A DNA stretch of 23,906 bases. Source: a virus. A program made the translations under genes and the position numbers. Below, piece after piece: positions 846 through 14,887 of the stretch. Location: positions 1 through 23,906 of IMG/VR virus record IMGVR_UViG_3300008267_000438; one strand, written 5' to 3'. The notes below the pieces were generated by a model, which searched no databases, was not told the origin of the DNA, and was given only the letters and a program-made list of their open reading frames with translations. The first letter of the stretch is position 1; each line of letters starts with the position of its first letter.

Positions 846-2315
846 ATGATATTTGAAATACACTCTGAACGAAGTGCAAACGATAAAAAAATCTTTTACT
901 ATGACAATGAAACCAATACATTAAAGAGTGAAGATGGAATCACCTTTCAGTTTCCTGAAGGAACGGTTCATAATCATAATTTAACACCTTATCGTCCATT
1001 CGACAAAGACCATCCACTTAAAAAATCTAAGAATGTTCAGTTACTTAAAATCCAAATGGGTTTGAGTTGTAACTATTCATGCGACTATTGTTCTCAGAAG
1101 TTTGTTGAGCGCATGCCTGAAACATCCAAGAAAGATATTGATGCTTTTATGGAGATGTTTGACACATTGGAGTTTGATGAAAAAAAAGGCCTTGCGATTG
1201 AGTTTTGGGGTGGTGAACCATTTGTCTATTGGAAGACAATGAAGCCATTGGCTGAGACCATTCGTGAGCGCTTTGAACATTGGGAAAATAAACCACGATT
1301 CTCTGTAATCACCAATGGTTCTATTTTGACACCAGATATTTGTGATTGGTTGATGATGATGGACTTTTCTGTATCAATCTCACATGATGGACCTGGTCAA
1401 TCAGTTCGTGGTCCTGATCCATTTGATGATCTAGACCAAAAGAAAATCATTTTAGATTTCTATCGTGCAATGACCCGATTAGGTAAAGGCATCAGTTTTA
1501 ATCCAATGATGAATAGTAAAAACAAATCACGCAAAGAGATTTATGATTGGTTTGTTAAACTCACTGGTGATACTGATATTAAATTGGGTGAAGGTGGTAT
1601 TGTAGATAGTTACGATGAAGATGGTATGCAGAACAGTTTGCAAACCAAAGCTGAACATTTTGAATATCGCAGAACAGCTTTCTCAGATATATTTTCAACC
1701 AATGGTCAGATTGGATTCTTTGGACAATTAGGTAAAATAGATGGTTTCACTCAGGCTGTTTTATCACACTCAGAATCAAAATATCTCAATCAAAAGTGTG
1801 GGATGGACAATGAACACACCTTGGCGGTAGACTTACGAGGTAATGTAATGACCTGCCAAAACGTAAGTGCTGTTGAGGAGGGTAAGAACGGTGAATCACA
1901 TTATGGTGGTAACCTAAAAGAATTTGATAAGGTTGAGATTAAGACCTCAACCCATTGGTCAAATCGTAAAGAGTGTCCTAAATGTCCAGTTTTACACCTA
2001 TGTCAAGGTGCCTGTATGTTCTTAGATAAAAAGTTTTGGGATGTTTCTTGTGCCAATTCATATTCAGACAATGTGGCTCTTTTTGCAATTGCTCTGGCTC
2101 GTATGACGGGTTATATTCCTGTATTAATTAAACATCCAGAATTGCCATTGGATCGCCAAGATATTTGGGGTACCGTGTATGAACATAAAGAAGAACCAAA
2201 GAAAAAGATTATACCGATCAAGGTCGTAAGTGAAAAGATAGGTGAGATTGAAGGTGTGGAAGTCTATGGTAAATCACGGTTGGCCGATGATATAAATACT
2301 AAAATAACCAATTAA
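846..2315 (+). CDS. Radical SAM/SPASM-domain protein-modifying enzyme
   Basis: The 489-residue protein carries a canonical radical SAM cluster motif C75-x3-C79-x2-C82 (GLSCNYSCDYCSQ), a WGGEP motif at 121-125 for SAM binding, and TNGS and SISHDGPG strands typical of the partial TIM barrel. The C-terminal half has a complete SPASM signature: C318-x13-G-x4-C337, then C377-x2-C380-x5-C386-x3-C390, then C402, which would hold two auxiliary 4Fe-4S clusters. SPASM enzymes of known function mostly modify peptides or proteins (sactisynthases, ranthipeptide synthases, QhpD, anaerobic sulfatase maturases). The next gene, 12 bases downstream, encodes a protein with a dense Cys/Asn block, the obvious candidate substrate. 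About 60 residues precede the barrel and about 75 follow the SPASM domain. Family is certain; substrate and chemistry are inferred. Confidence 0.95.
   Translation: MIFEIHSERSANDKKIFYYDNETNTLKSEDGITFQFPEGTVHNHNLTPYRPFDKDHPLKKSKNVQLLKIQMGLSCNYSCDYCSQKFVERMPETSKKDIDAFMEMFDTLEFDEKKGLAIEFWGGEPFVYWKTMKPLAETIRERFEHWENKPRFSVITNGSILTPDICDWLMMMDFSVSISHDGPGQSVRGPDPFDDLDQKKIILDFYRAMTRLGKGISFNPMMNSKNKSRKEIYDWFVKLTGDTDIKLGEGGIVDSYDEDGMQNSLQTKAEHFEYRRTAFSDIFSTNGQIGFFGQLGKIDGFTQAVLSHSESKYLNQKCGMDNEHTLAVDLRGNVMTCQNVSAVEEGKNGESHYGGNLKEFDKVEIKTSTHWSNRKECPKCPVLHLCQGACMFLDKKFWDVSCANSYSDNVALFAIALARMTGYIPVLIKHPELPLDRQDIWGTVYEHKEEPKKKIIPIKVVSEKIGEIEGVEVYGKSRLADDINTKITN
2291..2298 (+). promoter_or_regulatory. T4-type late promoter-like element TATAAATA
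   Basis: An exact match to the T4 late promoter -10 element TATAAATA lies 29 bases before the ATG of the Cys/Asn-rich gene, inside the 3' end of the radical SAM gene. T4-like phages transcribe virion genes from such sites with gp55, gp33 and gp45, and a gp33 homologue is in this window. Exact matches also occur by chance in AT-rich DNA, and here the bases also encode protein, so this is only suggestive. Confidence 0.35.
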
Positions 2316-2327
2316 TCGAGTAATACT

Positions 2328-3227
2328 ATGACATTACCATCATCTGGAGCAATTAGTTTTAATGACGTAAATAGTAAAATAGGTCAATCACCTACTTTCT
2401 CATCCAGCCTACAATTTCTGAACAACCAGATTGTACCTACTCAACGGCCAGCAACACCGGCCATGAACAATTTTTACAGTAAAAATTGGTTTCAGAACAA
2501 TACACAAGGCAATTGCAACAATGGTAATTGCACAAGTAACTGTAACTGTGGTAATATTCAATGTAATAATTGTTTAATTTCTGGCGGGGTAAATTGCACC
2601 AATTGTGATGCACAAAACTGGTTACAAACAAATTGTAACTGTGCTTGTACCTATAACTGCACCACAGCAGAAACTTCATTTAACTGTAACTGTGCTTGTA
2701 ATTGTTCTAAGATTATCTGTGCCAAATTATACGAGTTTGGTATGTTGGACTATCGTGTGTGGGCTGCTGATCAAAAGTATGGTTCTTGGTTAAAGAAAAA
2801 TGATAAGGTTGTTTACCGTGGTTATATTCGTTGGGCTAAAACAGTAACAGCATGGATGGACGGTACAGGTCCTGATTTTATGTTATGGGTAAACAAAAAA
2901 GAAAGAAATCAAAAACAAAAAGAAGCAACTACAAAGTGGGCTCATAAAATTGCCACACCTTGGGCCGAACACATGGCGTATCTCATGGGAACTATTGAAA
3001 AAGATAATCCTGTCGGTAAGATACTAATGAAAATTGGTCGTGTAGTGTGTAAACTTGTGTTTATGTTACCCAAGAAATATAAATTAGGATTGTTTGGATC
3101 ATGGATGATGTGGTTCTTATGTTTAGGTAGTTTTTTCTGTGCAAAATCAATTGTAAAAACTTCTAAATTAATAGATAAAATAAAATTAATTGTAAAAACA
3201 AAATTTATCCAAGGATTTGCTAAATGA
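2328..3227 (+). CDS. Cys/Asn-rich protein with tail-fibre-type N-terminus; candidate substrate of the modification cassette
   Basis: Residues 1-55 (MTLPSSGAISFNDVN..., ending FYSKNW) match the start module of phage fibre proteins; the same layout begins the gene at 23145. Residues 62-131 hold 17 cysteines: 63, 68, 72, 74, 79, 82, 90, 93, 103, 105, 107, 111, 120, 122, 124, 126 and 131. Thirteen of them directly follow Asn. The CxCxC spacing fits no zinc-finger class I know. Residues 132-300 form a Trp/Lys-rich part with a PWAEHMAYLMG segment and a hydrophobic stretch at about 254-275 that could enter a membrane. I recall similar C-terminal domains in marine phage tail proteins, unverified. The gene lies between a radical SAM/SPASM enzyme and three 2OG oxygenases and overlaps the next ATG by four bases. 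A virion or adhesin role and post-translational modification are inference. Confidence 0.85.
   Translation: MTLPSSGAISFNDVNSKIGQSPTFSSSLQFLNNQIVPTQRPATPAMNNFYSKNWFQNNTQGNCNNGNCTSNCNCGNIQCNNCLISGGVNCTNCDAQNWLQTNCNCACTYNCTTAETSFNCNCACNCSKIICAKLYEFGMLDYRVWAADQKYGSWLKKNDKVVYRGYIRWAKTVTAWMDGTGPDFMLWVNKKERNQKQKEATTKWAHKIATPWAEHMAYLMGTIEKDNPVGKILMKIGRVVCKLVFMLPKKYKLGLFGSWMMWFLCLGSFFCAKSIVKTSKLIDKIKLIVKTKFIQGFAK
2635..2700 (+). repeat. Short direct repeat inside the Cys-rich block
   Basis: A 15-base sequence, GTAACTGTGCTTGTA, occurs at 2635-2649 and again at 2686-2700, 51 bases apart and in frame. Each copy encodes the CNCAC motif (residues 103-107 and 120-124). This suggests that the Cys/Asn block grew by small in-frame duplications. 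Confidence 0.7.
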
Positions 3228-3589
3228 TAAACATTAAAGATATTGATTTCAATGCCGATGGTATTGCTGACGCCGATTTAAATCGTGATGGCACAGTAAC
3301 AGAGGAAGAAATTGAAAAGTATAGAAAACACATTGTTCACTACTTTGATAGTCAATTAGGTAATGACATATTGAATTTAACACCAGAAGATAAAAGTCGT
3401 TTTTTTCAAATGATTGAACAGTATGCTGATATTTTAGAAAAAATACTACACCCCGGTATCGATATCATTGAACACGTCCAAGGTAAACGCTTTGCAGCAG
3501 CTAATGCCAACCCACACGAAGGCATTAATTGGGATTATGATTGCCCAATTATTCGTCAATATGAAGAATGGAAAGCCTCTAAGGCTTAA
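3224..3589 (+). CDS. Small acidic protein with an EF-hand-type calcium loop
   Basis: Near the N-terminus of this 121-residue protein is a canonical 12-residue EF-hand loop, DLNRDGTVTEEE (D18, N20, D22, V25, E29). It is preceded by a degenerate copy, DFNADGIADADL (8-19), that lacks the final Glu. Such tandem loops resemble dockerin or EF-hand modules and usually bind calcium. The rest is helical and charged, with no signal peptide or membrane segment. The ATG overlaps the stop of the Cys/Asn-rich gene by four bases, so the two are probably made together. It may be a partner or stabilising subunit of that protein, but this is inferred from position only. Confidence 0.75.
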   Translation: MINIKDIDFNADGIADADLNRDGTVTEEEIEKYRKHIVHYFDSQLGNDILNLTPEDKSRFFQMIEQYADILEKILHPGIDIIEHVQGKRFAAANANPHEGINWDYDCPIIRQYEEWKASKA

Positions 3590-10305: not shown

Positions 10306-11589
10306 TTATACAACTCTGGTACTGTATAATATCATTCTTTGGAATGTTTCTTCCATATTCCTTACCGAAGGAATCTCGGTGACACTTTGCTCAGATGGTT
10401 GATTTTGTGTATTGATATTTGTTGTATTGATTGTTTCACCAGCCAAAGTTGAATCCTTTGGTAAATTCATTTCTAAATTTTCATTAGTTGCTGGCATTAC
10501 GGCTGCTGATGCAGGCGCCGCAGGCATTGGTGTGGCCGTGTCGGAAGATTCTGCTGAAGCCGTTGGTGTCGCTGTGGGTCCTGAATTGGATTCTGGTGTT
10601 GCTGTCGCTGGTACTGTGGCAGGTTTGCCAAGTAACTTATCTCTTTCAATTTTATAATCTTGAACTGCTCGTGCAGCTTCTGGACCTCGCTCTGCATATC
10701 CTTTTAATTGTGCATCATTTAATTTATCACCTTCATTGTAGTTTTTCTCATAATTAGCAATTTCAGCTTTTGTTTTTTCATATTCTGGAAGTTTTCTAAT
10801 ACGGTCTTCCTCATCTTTGGCACCAGCAAGACCTCCAATATCTTCTGCTTGTTTTAAGGCCAAATTAAAAGGTGAGTTTGGATCTTTATCGTAACTGGAT
10901 TCATCAGTCAAAACTTTATACATGAAATAAGCAATACCAGCTGCAGCTGCACCACCTAATAAAACTCCACCAACACCAGTAACAGCGGCTGATGCTAGGC
11001 TACCTAATCCTTTAATTGCTAATTTACCAAGGTCTTTTAAACCAAACATGGCCAATATATCATCAAGTATTGAACTACCTGGTTCTTCTTTCTTTGTTGC
11101 TGTTTCTTCTTTTGTTGATTTATAACCTAAAGCATCCATTAATTCTTTATGGCGTTGTCTAGCTCTCAATTCTCTTTCAAATATTTCTTCTTCTGTGGGT
11201 GATAGATTTTCAAGTGAACGCCGAGAATCTTCCAACAAAAGATAAATCTCATTGAGCATCTCTAACATACCTTCCCCACCTTCATTAGTGGGTTTTATCT
11301 TTGATGCTGTGTCCATTTTACCTTGCTTACCGGTAAAATATTTCATATTCTTTTCACTTCTACCCATCAATCTACCAACAATAGCAGGAGCCAAATTTGA
11401 ACCACCAGTCATAAACTTGGCAATGTTCATTGGATCAAACTTCTTCTTCAAGTTTGTCATTCTAGCTTTACCACCTTCTGAAACAGATTTAGAAATGGAT
11501 TTACCAAAAGACTCTCCGCCAACCATTTTCTCAGCAATTCTATCTGATAGTGTTTTTTTTCTTATTCTATCGGCTTGTTCGTAGTCCAT
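10306..11589 (-). CDS. Tail/baseplate structural protein with hydrophobic core segment (hub or tape-measure candidate)
   Basis: The first ~85 residues of this 427-residue protein (RIRKKTLSDRI..., KKFDPMNIAKFMTGGSNLAPAIVGRLMGR) clearly match the N-terminus of the neighbouring 541-residue protein, so the two are related by duplication. A glycine/alanine-rich hydrophobic region (about residues 187-222, ending GIAYFMYKVL) looks membrane-compatible. The rest is charged helix, then Pro/Ala/Thr-rich linker, then a C-terminal TRVV end. Hydrophobic segments are common in tape-measure proteins, and the gene lies downstream of the gp26 frameshift region. No known T4 counterpart could be recognised by sequence. 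Confidence 0.7.
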   Translation of the reverse strand: MDYEQADRIRKKTLSDRIAEKMVGGESFGKSISKSVSEGGKARMTNLKKKFDPMNIAKFMTGGSNLAPAIVGRLMGRSEKNMKYFTGKQGKMDTASKIKPTNEGGEGMLEMLNEIYLLLEDSRRSLENLSPTEEEIFERELRARQRHKELMDALGYKSTKEETATKKEEPGSSILDDILAMFGLKDLGKLAIKGLGSLASAAVTGVGGVLLGGAAAAGIAYFMYKVLTDESSYDKDPNSPFNLALKQAEDIGGLAGAKDEEDRIRKLPEYEKTKAEIANYEKNYNEGDKLNDAQLKGYAERGPEAARAVQDYKIERDKLLGKPATVPATATPESNSGPTATPTASAESSDTATPMPAAPASAAVMPATNENLEMNLPKDSTLAGETINTTNINTQNQPSEQSVTEIPSVRNMEETFQRMILYSTRVV

Positions 11590-11591
11590 TT

Positions 11592-13217
11592 TTAACCTTT
11601 ACTCTTTTCAAGAATTGCTGGCCTGTCATTCTCTTTTTGTTTCTTACTTGGTTGTTGTGTATTATTTGTTTGATTAACATTGGTGGTATTTACAATGTTT
11701 GCATTTTTATCAGATTCAGTCCGTTTTAAATCTTTATTTTCTTTTGATGATTGGTCTATTTGTGATCCTGCATTTGAAACATTATCTAAAGCGGTTGAAT
11801 ATTCATTTACTGTCTGTAATATCTTAGCACCAATGCCTTCATCCAAATTTAATTTTTTTCCACCAATTGCTTGAGTAACCGCTCTGTTTGCTTCGGATTG
11901 AGATTGAAAATCTAATTTTCCATTAGTTCCCTTTTTTACAAATTCGGCCACTACTTTATAATCAATATCTGGTTGATTAACTAATTCAGGATTAGATACA
12001 AGGTCTTGTCCTACAATCTTTGAGTATGCTTTGTAATTGTTTTTACCAGTTAATTGAATTGCACCGCGGCCACGATATTTAAAACCATCACCTTCTTGTG
12101 TGTTGCCCATTGATTGGCCAATAGCCGTATCTTTTCCATACACCATTTCAGCAAATTTATATTCGTCTTTTTTAATTTGGTTTAATTCTTCATCAGTATA
12201 TTTTGCAGCTCTAGTAGTAAATACTTCTCGTATTCTTTTATTTGAAGTGTTTGCATACGCTTTTAAATCTTCATTTCTAGGTTTAAATCCTGTTTCTTTA
12301 CCAACGTTGGCTAAAATTGCTTTTTGTGCATAAGCATTTGTTATGCCTGCTGACGTTAAAGCTGCTGTTAATACTCCTATTACTCCTTTTCCAGCTGCAA
12401 TCACACCTTCTTTTCCAGGAAGTTTTGCTGCTGTTGGTGGTTTAACTGTTGGCGCTGGCGCCGCAGTTGGTGGTTTAACCTCTGGTTTAGGTGCAGGCGC
12501 AGCTGTTGGTTTTTCTACTGGCTTAGCTGGTGGCTTTGGTGCTTCTTTAGTAGGTGGCTTTGGTGCTTCTTTAGTAGGTGGCTTTGGTGCTTCTTTAGTA
12601 GGTGGCTTTGGTGCTTCTTTAGTAGGTGCTTTGCCTTTACCTGAAGGTGCCGTAGGTTTTGATGGTGCAGCAGGTTTTTCTTTTACTTCTTCTTTCTTTT
12701 TTCTTTTCTTTTTATCTTCTTCTTCTTTTTTCTTTCTACCCGTCAAAGCTGCAATGATAGCTTTATTTTTTTGTATTTCTCTTTCTTCATTTGATTCATC
12801 TTCTTTTTTTCTGGCTTTGGCCAATGACTTTCTGGTTTCTTCAGCCATTTTTAATTCTTCATAAATCATTCCCAACACTTTAGTTGATTCACCGCCTTCT
12901 TCTAATGCACCACCAGTTTCAAAATTAACTCCTCGTGCAGAAGGTCTTTTTCTTGGTTTGGCAAAATGTTCTATTGTGGATTGTTTACGACCCATTAAAC
13001 GGCCGAGAAGTGCTGGTGCTAGATTAGAACCGCCAGTAAGTTTCTTGGCAATATTGAGTGGGTCGAACTTTTCTTGAATGCCAGTGAATGTGGCTTTGGT
13101 TCTATCGGATATGGCGGAACCAAAAGACGAACCAATGCCTTGACCTTCAACCAAATTGTTGGTGATGAGGCCTGCAAGTCCTTTTTTTCGTATGCCTTCA
13201 GCTTTGCCGTATTCCAT
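11592..13217 (-). CDS. Tail-associated protein with C-terminal GH19 lysozyme/chitinase domain
   Basis: This 541-residue protein opens with the same ~85-residue module as its downstream neighbour, followed by a Lys/Glu-rich coiled-coil region (130-180) and a Pro/Lys linker containing four TKEAPKPP repeats (199-230). Residues about 285-470 form a glycoside hydrolase 19 domain: ILANVGKETGF with candidate catalytic E308, then GDGFKYRGRGAIQLTGKNNY (376-395), the family's strongest signature. GH19 in phages cleaves peptidoglycan. In a tail protein it would locally open the wall during infection, the job done in T4 by the lysozyme domain of gp5, which is missing here. The C-terminus is polar and Asn-rich. 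Confidence 0.87.
   Translation of the reverse strand: MEYGKAEGIRKKGLAGLITNNLVEGQGIGSSFGSAISDRTKATFTGIQEKFDPLNIAKKLTGGSNLAPALLGRLMGRKQSTIEHFAKPRKRPSARGVNFETGGALEEGGESTKVLGMIYEELKMAEETRKSLAKARKKEDESNEEREIQKNKAIIAALTGRKKKEEEDKKKRKKKEEVKEKPAAPSKPTAPSGKGKAPTKEAPKPPTKEAPKPPTKEAPKPPTKEAPKPPAKPVEKPTAAPAPKPEVKPPTAAPAPTVKPPTAAKLPGKEGVIAAGKGVIGVLTAALTSAGITNAYAQKAILANVGKETGFKPRNEDLKAYANTSNKRIREVFTTRAAKYTDEELNQIKKDEYKFAEMVYGKDTAIGQSMGNTQEGDGFKYRGRGAIQLTGKNNYKAYSKIVGQDLVSNPELVNQPDIDYKVVAEFVKKGTNGKLDFQSQSEANRAVTQAIGGKKLNLDEGIGAKILQTVNEYSTALDNVSNAGSQIDQSSKENKDLKRTESDKNANIVNTTNVNQTNNTQQPSKKQKENDRPAILEKSKG
12529..12624 (-). repeat. Four perfect 24-bp tandem repeats encoding TKEAPKPP
   Basis: The unit (plus strand GGTGGCTTTGGTGCTTCTTTAGTA is split here as GGTGGCTTTGGT and GCTTCTTTAGTA) occurs four times without change at 12529, 12553, 12577 and 12601. 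It encodes TKEAPKPP in the linker before the GH19 domain. Perfect identity between units points to recent expansion, so copy number may vary between relatives. Confidence 0.9.
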
Positions 13218-13220
13218 TTA

Positions 13221-13418
13221 CTATTTTCTTTGTCTTTCCCGTATCTTTTGGTTTTCTTCTTCAATATACGCAATCAACATAGAAACGTAAATGTCCCGTT
13301 CCCAAGGCATCATATTTTCAAGCTCTGACAAACTATACTTATGGTGATGTATCAATGCAAAGTTTGTCTTATAGTAATTCTTTAAATTGTCATGACGAAA
13401 TATTAAACGAAAAAACTT
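13221..13418 (-). CDS. -1 frame extension of gp26 (62 aa, gp51/tail-chaperone-like), made by ribosomal frameshift
   Basis: The minus strand has a frame open from 13418 to a TAG at 13221 that overlaps the last codons of gp26. It reads RLIFRHDNLKNYYK, then ...HHHKYSLSELENMMPWERDI..., then YVSMLIAYIEEENQ. This has good amino-acid composition and a look I recognise from small proteins following gp26 in T4-like phages. There is no ATG before the internal Met-Met pair 33 residues in, and no ribosome-binding site at its start. Shifting -1 at T TTT TTC joins it to gp26, giving a 302-residue fusion. It ends just before the 541-residue tail gene. The coding call is fairly strong; production by frameshift is inference. 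Confidence 0.75.
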   Translation of the reverse strand, partial: KFFRLIFRHDNLKNYYKTNFALIHHHKYSLSELENMMPWERDIYVSMLIAYIEEENQKIRERQRK

Positions 13419-14128
13419 TCAAGTCCTTCTACTTCAATTTTATGTTCGAAACCACATTTACTACATTTAATATCCAATGTTTCTTTTAATTTTGGTAGAT
13501 TATTAAAGAAATTTTCAATCTTACCAAATTGTTCTTGGTTTAAACCTTCAACAAACTCCATTAATTCTTCTGGTGTTGATTCAGTTGCGTAGTAAAATTG
13601 TTCACCATCATAAATATATTCAATACTCTGTGCGATCATATGAAAGGTGACATCATTAATATTTTCATATTGCAAAGAATCTTTAACAATACCAAACTCT
13701 GGATACTTTAACTTAATTGAAATGTTTGATGTAAGTTTAATCTCAGCCGAAACATCTTCATTCATTTGTACCTGAATTTGAGTTAAATCAACTTCTTTCT
13801 CCATAATATTACCACATTCAACATCATCAACCACATTATTACAACGATACCGTGATTCAACTATCTCACCAACTGATTTGGCACGAAGATTGACGAAGTA
13901 ATATTCAACATCAATGATAGGCAATTTCTCTATATTTACACCTTCTGTAAGAGTGCAATTATAAAGAATATCTTTAATGTTTTGTTGAATGGTGGTTGAT
14001 TCAGACGATTCAATGGCCATTAATAGATTTCGTTGTTCTTTTACAAGAAATGGTCTATATTTAATTTTAGTTTTTGAAACCGGCAACTCAATTTCATATG
14101 TCGGCACATCAATTTTTGGTAAAGCCAT
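13403..14128 (-). CDS. gp26: Baseplate hub assembly protein gp26-like (T4 baseplate family)
   Basis: The 241-residue protein opens MALPKIDVPTYEIELPVSKTKIKYRPFLVKEQ and continues NIKDILYNCTL, EKLPIIDVEYYFVNLRAKSVGEIVE and ISIKLKYPEFG. This is the pattern of the T4 gp26 / T4_baseplate family (PF12322). Two Cys pairs (C96, C105 and C222-x2-C225) could form a zinc site. In T4, gp26 acts with gp51 in hub assembly. Here the gene ends in a slippery sequence leading into a second frame, so a minor longer product is likely. TAGGAGT lies upstream of the start. Confidence 0.88.
   Translation of the reverse strand: MALPKIDVPTYEIELPVSKTKIKYRPFLVKEQRNLLMAIESSESTTIQQNIKDILYNCTLTEGVNIEKLPIIDVEYYFVNLRAKSVGEIVESRYRCNNVVDDVECGNIMEKEVDLTQIQVQMNEDVSAEIKLTSNISIKLKYPEFGIVKDSLQYENINDVTFHMIAQSIEYIYDGEQFYYATESTPEELMEFVEGLNQEQFGKIENFFNNLPKLKETLDIKCSKCGFEHKIEVEGLESFFV
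13409..13430 (-). promoter_or_regulatory. Putative -1 programmed frameshift site T TTT TTC with upstream SD-like element
   Basis: In the gp26 frame the last codons are GAA AGT TTT TTC GTT TAA. The heptamer T TTT TTC (13409-13415, minus strand) is a classic X XXY YYZ slippery sequence. AGAAGGA (13424-13430) lies eight bases upstream and could act as a stimulatory internal Shine-Dalgarno, as in dnaX. No clear downstream pseudoknot was seen. Confidence 0.7.
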
Positions 14129-14161: not shown

Positions 14162-14887
14162 TTATACTATGTTGTTTGCATCTCTTTGACTTATTAAATC
14201 TAAAGCACTTATCTCTAGTTCTTGTGTGTTTCCACCAGCTAAAGCATTTGGTAAAAAATTACCAGACTGACCTAAAGCACCAACCGCATTACCACCTAAA
14301 CCACCAATTGCATCAGAAACAAATGCAAGACCAGCATCAACCAGTTGCATACCATAAGCCTGCAACGAATTGTTCTGCCAGTATGTGTATGCAAATGTAA
14401 CTCTTAGTTTGTGGTATCCATCGGTTGCCCAATCTAAATCTAAAGCTTCAATAGAAATAGGATAAGCATCATATAAATTACAAGAATATGATATTTGATT
14501 TGTAACATCATATTGATTTACAGTAATAGCTGTTGCATAATCACCTTTGTATCTAAAATTGTAATTATATTGTGGATTGATAAAGTTTAACCAAGCGTCA
14601 AAAAATACCTTTTGGCTCATGTCATCATCAACCATAAATGTTAACTGCATATCATTAAATGTTGTAAGATAAGGATATTTTTCAACAGGATTTGAACCAA
14701 TCTTTTGTTCTGTGGTTGCTAGTGACCGACCAGGTAAATTAGCACTCTCACACCGGTAAGTTAAACTCTTTGCATTATTGACATAAGGTATCAAAGTTAA
14801 TGGAACAGGAATACTGACATCAAATCTATTTGGTCGTGCTAGGTCTTTTCTAAAACTTGCTTTGAAGTCGCTAATGTTACCAGCCAT
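14162..14887 (-). CDS. Tail-tube-fold baseplate protein (gp54/gp19 family)
   Basis: The 241-residue protein contains ARPNRFDVSIPVP, YRCESANLPGRSLATTEQKIG, EKYPYLTTFNDMQLTFMVDDDM, FFDAWLNFINP and DAYPISIEALDLDWATDGYHKLRVTFAYTYW. These are typical of the tail-tube fold shared by T4 gp19, gp48 and gp54. It is longer than gp19 (163) and shorter than T4 gp54 (320), so it is most likely the tube-initiator gp54 counterpart or an alternative tube protein. The C-terminal 60 residues are Gly/Ala/Asn-rich and end DANNIV. AAGGAA precedes the ATG. Confidence 0.8.
   Translation of the reverse strand: MAGNISDFKASFRKDLARPNRFDVSIPVPLTLIPYVNNAKSLTYRCESANLPGRSLATTEQKIGSNPVEKYPYLTTFNDMQLTFMVDDDMSQKVFFDAWLNFINPQYNYNFRYKGDYATAITVNQYDVTNQISYSCNLYDAYPISIEALDLDWATDGYHKLRVTFAYTYWQNNSLQAYGMQLVDAGLAFVSDAIGGLGGNAVGALGQSGNFLPNALAGGNTQELEISALDLISQRDANNIV

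Follow-up and report, generated by a model that had tools for sequence, protein, structure and literature searches.

The gp26 junction in a T4-like tail gene cluster

The window analysed here is the whole 23.9 kb of the virus record IMGVR_UViG_3300008267_000438, a fragment that carries a T4-like tail gene cluster with family matches to tail tube, gp4-like head closure, gp53, tube cap and other proteins. On its minus strand lies a gene of the gp26 family that has the heptamer T TTT TTC close to its stop codon, followed in the -1 frame by an open stretch related to T4 gp51 (Table 1). In the zero frame, the junction reads GAA GGA CTT GAA AGT TTT TTC GTT TAA. After a -1 slip, it would continue as CGT TTA ATA TTT ... 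AAA TAG, with 62 open codons (13409-13224) ahead of the stop (13223-13221), and the predicted fused gp26-gp51 product has 302 amino acids. No start codon stands at the beginning of this extension, where TTG first occurs at codon 19 and ATG at codon 33; the ATG of the next gene, at 13217, comes shortly after the TAG. A first-pass annotation, made from the letters alone, had reported the in-frame heptamer, the 62-residue frame without an initial start codon and a Shine-Dalgarno (SD)-like AGAAGGA eight bases upstream; direct reading confirmed all of these.

Table 1 Features of the gp26 junction and its immediate neighbours, in positions of the window.
Feature	Position	Strand	Basis or remark
gp26 family protein, short form, TAC-N-like, 241 amino acids	13403..14128	-	PF12322, E 5e-60; PHROG 150
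Slippery heptamer T TTT TTC	13409..13415	-	direct reading; one sense codon before the gp26 stop
gp26 stop codon TAA	13405-13403	-	direct reading
-1 frame extension, TAC-C-like, T4 gp51 C-terminal domain, 62 codons + TAG	13221..13409	-	PHROG 634, E 3e-29
SD-like AGAAGGA inside gp26, possible stimulator	13424..13430	-	ends 8 nucleotides 5' of the heptamer
Next gene, 541 amino acids, GH19-like domain	11592..13217	-	tape-measure or hub candidate, by position
Tail tube family gene, upstream of gp26	14162..14887	-	PHROG 45

Heptamers of the form X XXY YYZ begin in frame at 61 of the 6,843 codons of the window, and a -1 frame that stays open for at least 62 codons was found at 0 of ~6,800 gene-internal positions (median 5). 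We read the junction as a programmed -1 frameshift by which one gene would yield two forms of a tail-assembly chaperone, gp26 as the short one and gp26-gp51 as the long one, and assign this reading a probability of about 0.93. That the shift joins gp26 to a gp51-family extension had been the central claim of the first-pass annotation, and the comparison of homologues supports it strongly.

The extension as a coding sequence

The match of the extension to PHROG 634, the T4 gp51 family, covers the C-terminal portion of the profile. Against 65 relatives, differences in the extension fall at first, second and third codon positions in the numbers 337/110/885, and 645 codon changes are synonymous versus 419 non-synonymous. 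The other two frames contain 378 and 392 stops over the same stretch in these relatives, and an alignment of relatives shows a strongly conserved core, NYYKTNF..HHKYSL..ENM.PWER. Because of the third-position bias and the stops in both other frames, we regard the extension, on its pattern of substitution, as a genuine coding sequence under purifying selection.

Conservation of the heptamer

All 79 close IMG/VR relatives whose contigs include the gene end have T TTT TTC at this site. In 75 of them, the -1 extension can be followed through to its stop codon; the remaining four contigs break off before that. A wider set, collected with S-PM2 and KVP40 as queries, covered Kyanoviridae, KVP40-type phages and environmental sequences, with Ackermannviridae and T4-type phages left out; the KVP40 protein brought in two contigs only. 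Here the heptamer is in place in 167/167 records and lies one sense codon before the stop in 166. In the Pelagibacter phage Mosig the zero-frame stop comes several codons further on and the heptamer is retained. Carriers include P-SSM2, S-PM2, ACG-2014e, S-SSM4, Mosig and the vibriophage KVP40, as well as AS-zj, S-CRM01, S-WAM1 and P-TIM40. The first-pass annotation had suggested a check of homologues for a kept slippery site and -1 frame, and had named a disrupted heptamer as evidence to the contrary; no disruption was seen in the Kyanoviridae or KVP40-type relatives checked.

After removal of redundancy, 62 relatives remained, all with the heptamer. The codon ahead of the Phe-Phe pair is AGT, TCT, AAT, GAT or GCT in this set, always with a final T, and the pair itself never departs from TTT TTC, despite a preference for TTT elsewhere (357 to 136). 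The C of the heptamer is retained even where the -1 codon encodes Leu or His. The T before the Phe-Phe pair takes part in the second-frame reading only if the ribosome slips exactly at this site.

Two explanations without ribosomal slippage bear on these figures. A sequencing error or a recent disabling mutation could have split a gene that is really continuous, for which nothing speaks beyond the frame break itself. The same heptamer stands at the same place in 167 isolate and metagenome records, the extension, wherever read, follows in the -1 frame except in the Synechococcus phage S-SCSM1, and it is under purifying selection. Such an origin is exceedingly improbable for the window and, given heptamer conservation and codon pattern, error or pseudogene formation was ruled out for the group. 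Alternatively, RNA polymerase might slip on the six-T run, which does offer a homopolymer, so that a message of altered length would encode the fusion. Six T are on the short side for a bacterial polymerase to slip on, and both the invariant C and the codon register agree with slippage of tandem tRNAs; we give this explanation next to no weight.

A possible separate gp51 gene and the exceptions among relatives

The remaining competitor is a small, separate gp51 gene, translated by termination and reinitiation with a start codon close to where gp26 ends. It is annotated in this way in P-SSM2, S-PM2, Mosig and many other GenBank records, and in KVP40, 1.081.O, S-CRM01 and RHph_I34 the stop shares bases with an ATG (TAATG or TGATG). 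In S-SCSM1 (2200-2400), the heptamer is retained and the extension lies in another frame with an ATG of its own, which may reflect a genuine exception or an indel introduced by sequencing. In the window, by contrast, both of the first possible starts fall inside the conserved domain, and no gene is annotated at this place in the records of ACG-2014e and S-SSM4. Exactly half of the non-redundant relatives (31/62) have no ATG, GTG or TTG within the first 12 codons of the extension, and a separate gene would leave the invariance of T TTT TTC unexplained. The first-pass annotation had held that an independent ATG and ribosome-binding site in relatives would count against a shift; some relatives do have a nearby ATG, half of the non-redundant set does not, and S-SCSM1 uses the other frame. 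We consider reinitiation very unlikely overall and rejected an independent start for the window's clade; one may be used in KVP40-like phages.

Some phages depart from the heptamer itself. Rhizobium phage RHph_I34 has T TTT TTG in place of T TTT TTC. In Ackermannviridae, the zero frame of gp26 contains no heptamer of the form X XXY YYZ; the junction retains ATTTTCATTTAA, and the extension is once more in the -1 frame. Their junction is marked by a conserved ATTTTCATTTAAT, which points to either another type of slip or reinitiation. D507 has a junction similar, not identical, to that of Ackermannviridae.

Annotation of this region is uneven. The Aeromonas phage AS-zj contains an unannotated -1 extension (3193-3351). 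Sullivan and colleagues listed gp51 in 2010 as missing in Aeh1, which we take to be a relative; gp51 was possibly missed there for the same reason.

Candidate stimulators of the slip

A purine-G, SD-like motif lies 5' of the heptamer in 60 of the 62 non-redundant relatives. Its predicted duplex with the anti-SD sequence is stronger than in synonymous controls in 40/62, and the window's own value (-5.4 versus a control mean of -5.6) is no stronger than expected. The Gly codon that supplies the GG of the motif is conserved for the protein.

Downstream of the heptamer, the groups differ. The 42 relatives that fall outside the clade of the window, cyanophages for the most part, tend to have a strong stem-loop that starts a few bases 3' of the heptamer, with a mean z of -2.63 versus -0.43 in control coding windows and a z under -2 in 60%. 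The stem sequence differs between groups and, in one group, one pair has changed on both sides. Weak covariation and the coding role of these bases leave the cyanophage stem-loop probable rather than proven. In the window's clade, folding, alifold and shuffles revealed no 3' stem-loop (clade mean z +1.0, window z 0.37; pseudoknots were not tested), and alifold found no consensus pairs in the 100 nucleotides 3' of the heptamer in the clade alignment. One tentative interpretation, to which we give somewhat less than even odds, is that stimulators differ by clade: cyanophages would use a strong 3' stem-loop, and the window's clade would have lost or never had it and would rely on the bare heptamer, perhaps with the internal SD-like motif, so that the ratio of short to long form would be set differently or by host features.

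The T4-type arrangement

In T4 and phages of the Aeromonas 31 type, genes 26 and 51 are separate and divergently transcribed, and there is no frameshift. The first 200 residues of T4-type gp51 match PF12322 (E 4e-55), its end aligns with the extension of the window, FFRLIFRHDNLKNYYKTNFALIHHHKYSLSELENMMPWERD, and T4-type gp26 stops at FFELL, the same point as the short form of the window. By these alignments, T4-type gp51 is paralogous to gp26 over its full length and carries the extension in the same reading frame. The first-pass annotation, which named gp26 and gp51 of T4 as separate genes, needs correction here, as T4 gp51 is not merely the extension. Since T4-type gp51 reads as a continuous gp26-plus-extension protein, the fused form exists in nature.

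Copy number points the same way. A search for PF12322 gave a single copy per record in the ten searched records that lack the T4-type gene pair, Ackermannviridae among them, and two copies per record in the two T4-type ones. These counts, together with the full-length paralogy of gp51, lead us to view the T4 arrangement as a duplication that provides separately what other phages appear to obtain by slipping. The domain families (PF12322, PHROG 150 and 634) are shared between T4 and the window; T4-type phages have two divergent genes, whereas the window has a single gp26 gene with the extension out of frame behind it and not two paralogous genes, a count that holds for the fragment and not for the genome beyond it.

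Predicted fold and neighbouring genes

An AlphaFold2 model of gp26 (predicted local distance difference test score, pLDDT, 86.5) aligned over residues 1-86 with the HK97 tail assembly chaperone 2ob9_A (Z 6.9). For residues 1-95, the top four solved structures scored Z 5.5 to 7.6, and the next, unrelated row 2.4; the four include B. subtilis YqbN (Z 6.8), a prophage tail protein. With Z under 8, this modelled likeness to tail assembly chaperones is supportive, not decisive. A Foldseek comparison of the model with the PDB gave nothing under E 0.001, and sequence-based search returned no solved structure for gp26 or the extension. Matches of the extension to HIV gp41 helices were taken as chance helix similarity. 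The gp26 model closes with a short helix (residues 235-240) and that of the extension opens with a helix, so the slip probably falls within a single one.

Frameshifted tail chaperones of the G/GT type lie between the tail tube and tape-measure genes. In the window, the gene directly upstream of gp26 belongs to the tail tube family; the gene downstream is large, and a tape-measure role can be proposed for it from position only. Its product has one moderately hydrophobic segment, and weak tape-measure similarity was seen only in the S-CRM01 counterpart of the gene.

This 541-amino-acid protein combines its GH19-like domain with a run of APKPPTKE repeats. Together with a neighbouring 427-amino-acid protein (10306-13217 for both, minus strand), it forms a tandem duplication of paralogues that share 38-39% identity over their first ~170 residues, and both are candidates for tape-measure or hub proteins. 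Elsewhere in the window, on the plus strand (846-3227), a 489-amino-acid protein resembles radical SAM or SPASM enzymes by its CNYSCDYC motif and is followed by a 299-amino-acid protein, one stretch of which is very rich in Cys and Asn; the two are possibly an enzyme and its modified substrate.

Proposed mechanism and points against it

In the mechanism that we propose, most ribosomes would read gp26 to its stop and release the major, 241-amino-acid form. A minority would move one base back at T TTT TTC, where both Phe tRNAs could re-pair to TTT TTT, and would add 62 further residues in the -1 frame to give the minor, 302-amino-acid form with the T4 gp51 domain at its C-terminus. The analysis shows the sequence, its conservation, the family, the copy number and a fold resemblance, whereas the slip, its rate and the chaperone role are inferred. 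If lambda gpG/gpGT is a guide, the short form would coat the tape-measure protein and the long form would recruit tail tube subunits, and neither would be kept in the virion.

Several points weigh against this reading. The chance estimates for the heptamer (a mean of 0.125 per sequence for NNT TTT TTC with the same residues given) count related sequences as independent; over 14 clusters of divergent extensions, the log10 probability is ~ -12. The same bases are constrained as Phe-Phe in the zero frame and as Phe-Phe-Arg in the -1 frame, which explains part of their invariance; because they encode Phe-Phe in the other frame too, not all of it is owed to selection for slipping. No 3' stimulatory structure was detected in the window's clade, and the SD-like motif of the window is of ordinary strength. 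In several relatives, an ATG overlaps the gp26 stop or lies just past it, and the S-SCSM1 extension is out of the -1 frame.

Relation to known systems

Lambda slips at a heptamer other than T TTT TTC. Its gpG and gpGT, a short and a long form like those proposed for the window, bind the tape measure and link it to the tube subunits (PMC5009743); the gp26 of the window is larger and has cysteine pairs that may bind zinc. E. coli dnaX likewise combines a slippery heptamer with an SD-like motif about 10 nucleotides upstream and, as in the cyanophages, a 3' stem-loop, but it encodes an unrelated protein and the window's clade has no such stem-loop. Frameshifting of the G-T type was described as widely conserved in long-tailed phages 'except T4' (Atkins et al. 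2016, PMC5009743).

Among the open literature searched, we found no paper directly on a gp26/gp51 frameshift, and the prior study was met only as a reference. In that work of 2022, Vladimirov, Gautam and Davidson reportedly name gene 26 of T4 as the short gene and gene 51 as the long one, the two being separate, and describe frameshifting as kept in several T4-like groups. Papers that cite it report poly-T -1 signals in the TAC-N genes of T4-like phages (PMC12846349, citing Vladimirov et al. 2022) and, in some T4-like phages, one short and one long fused gene instead (PMC10274946). The first-pass annotation saw in a fused form a notable variant linking the two schemes. It is not a new one: as far as the citing papers (PMC12846349 and PMC10274946) convey it, Vladimirov et al. 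2022 had published the link between the two arrangements, and so the scheme is known in outline and the window adds a further case. It shares with the published system the gp26 short form and the gp26-gp51 long form, and differs in coming from an environmental clade without a downstream stem-loop. This difference between clades in the 3' stimulator may be what is new here.

Our analysis would extend the scheme of one gene and two tail chaperone products to an abundant environmental group. In these genomes, gp51 would not be a free-standing gene, and public annotation often describes it wrongly or omits it. The comparison also lends support to the published view that a pair of genes in T4 takes the place of the ribosomal frameshift used by its relatives.
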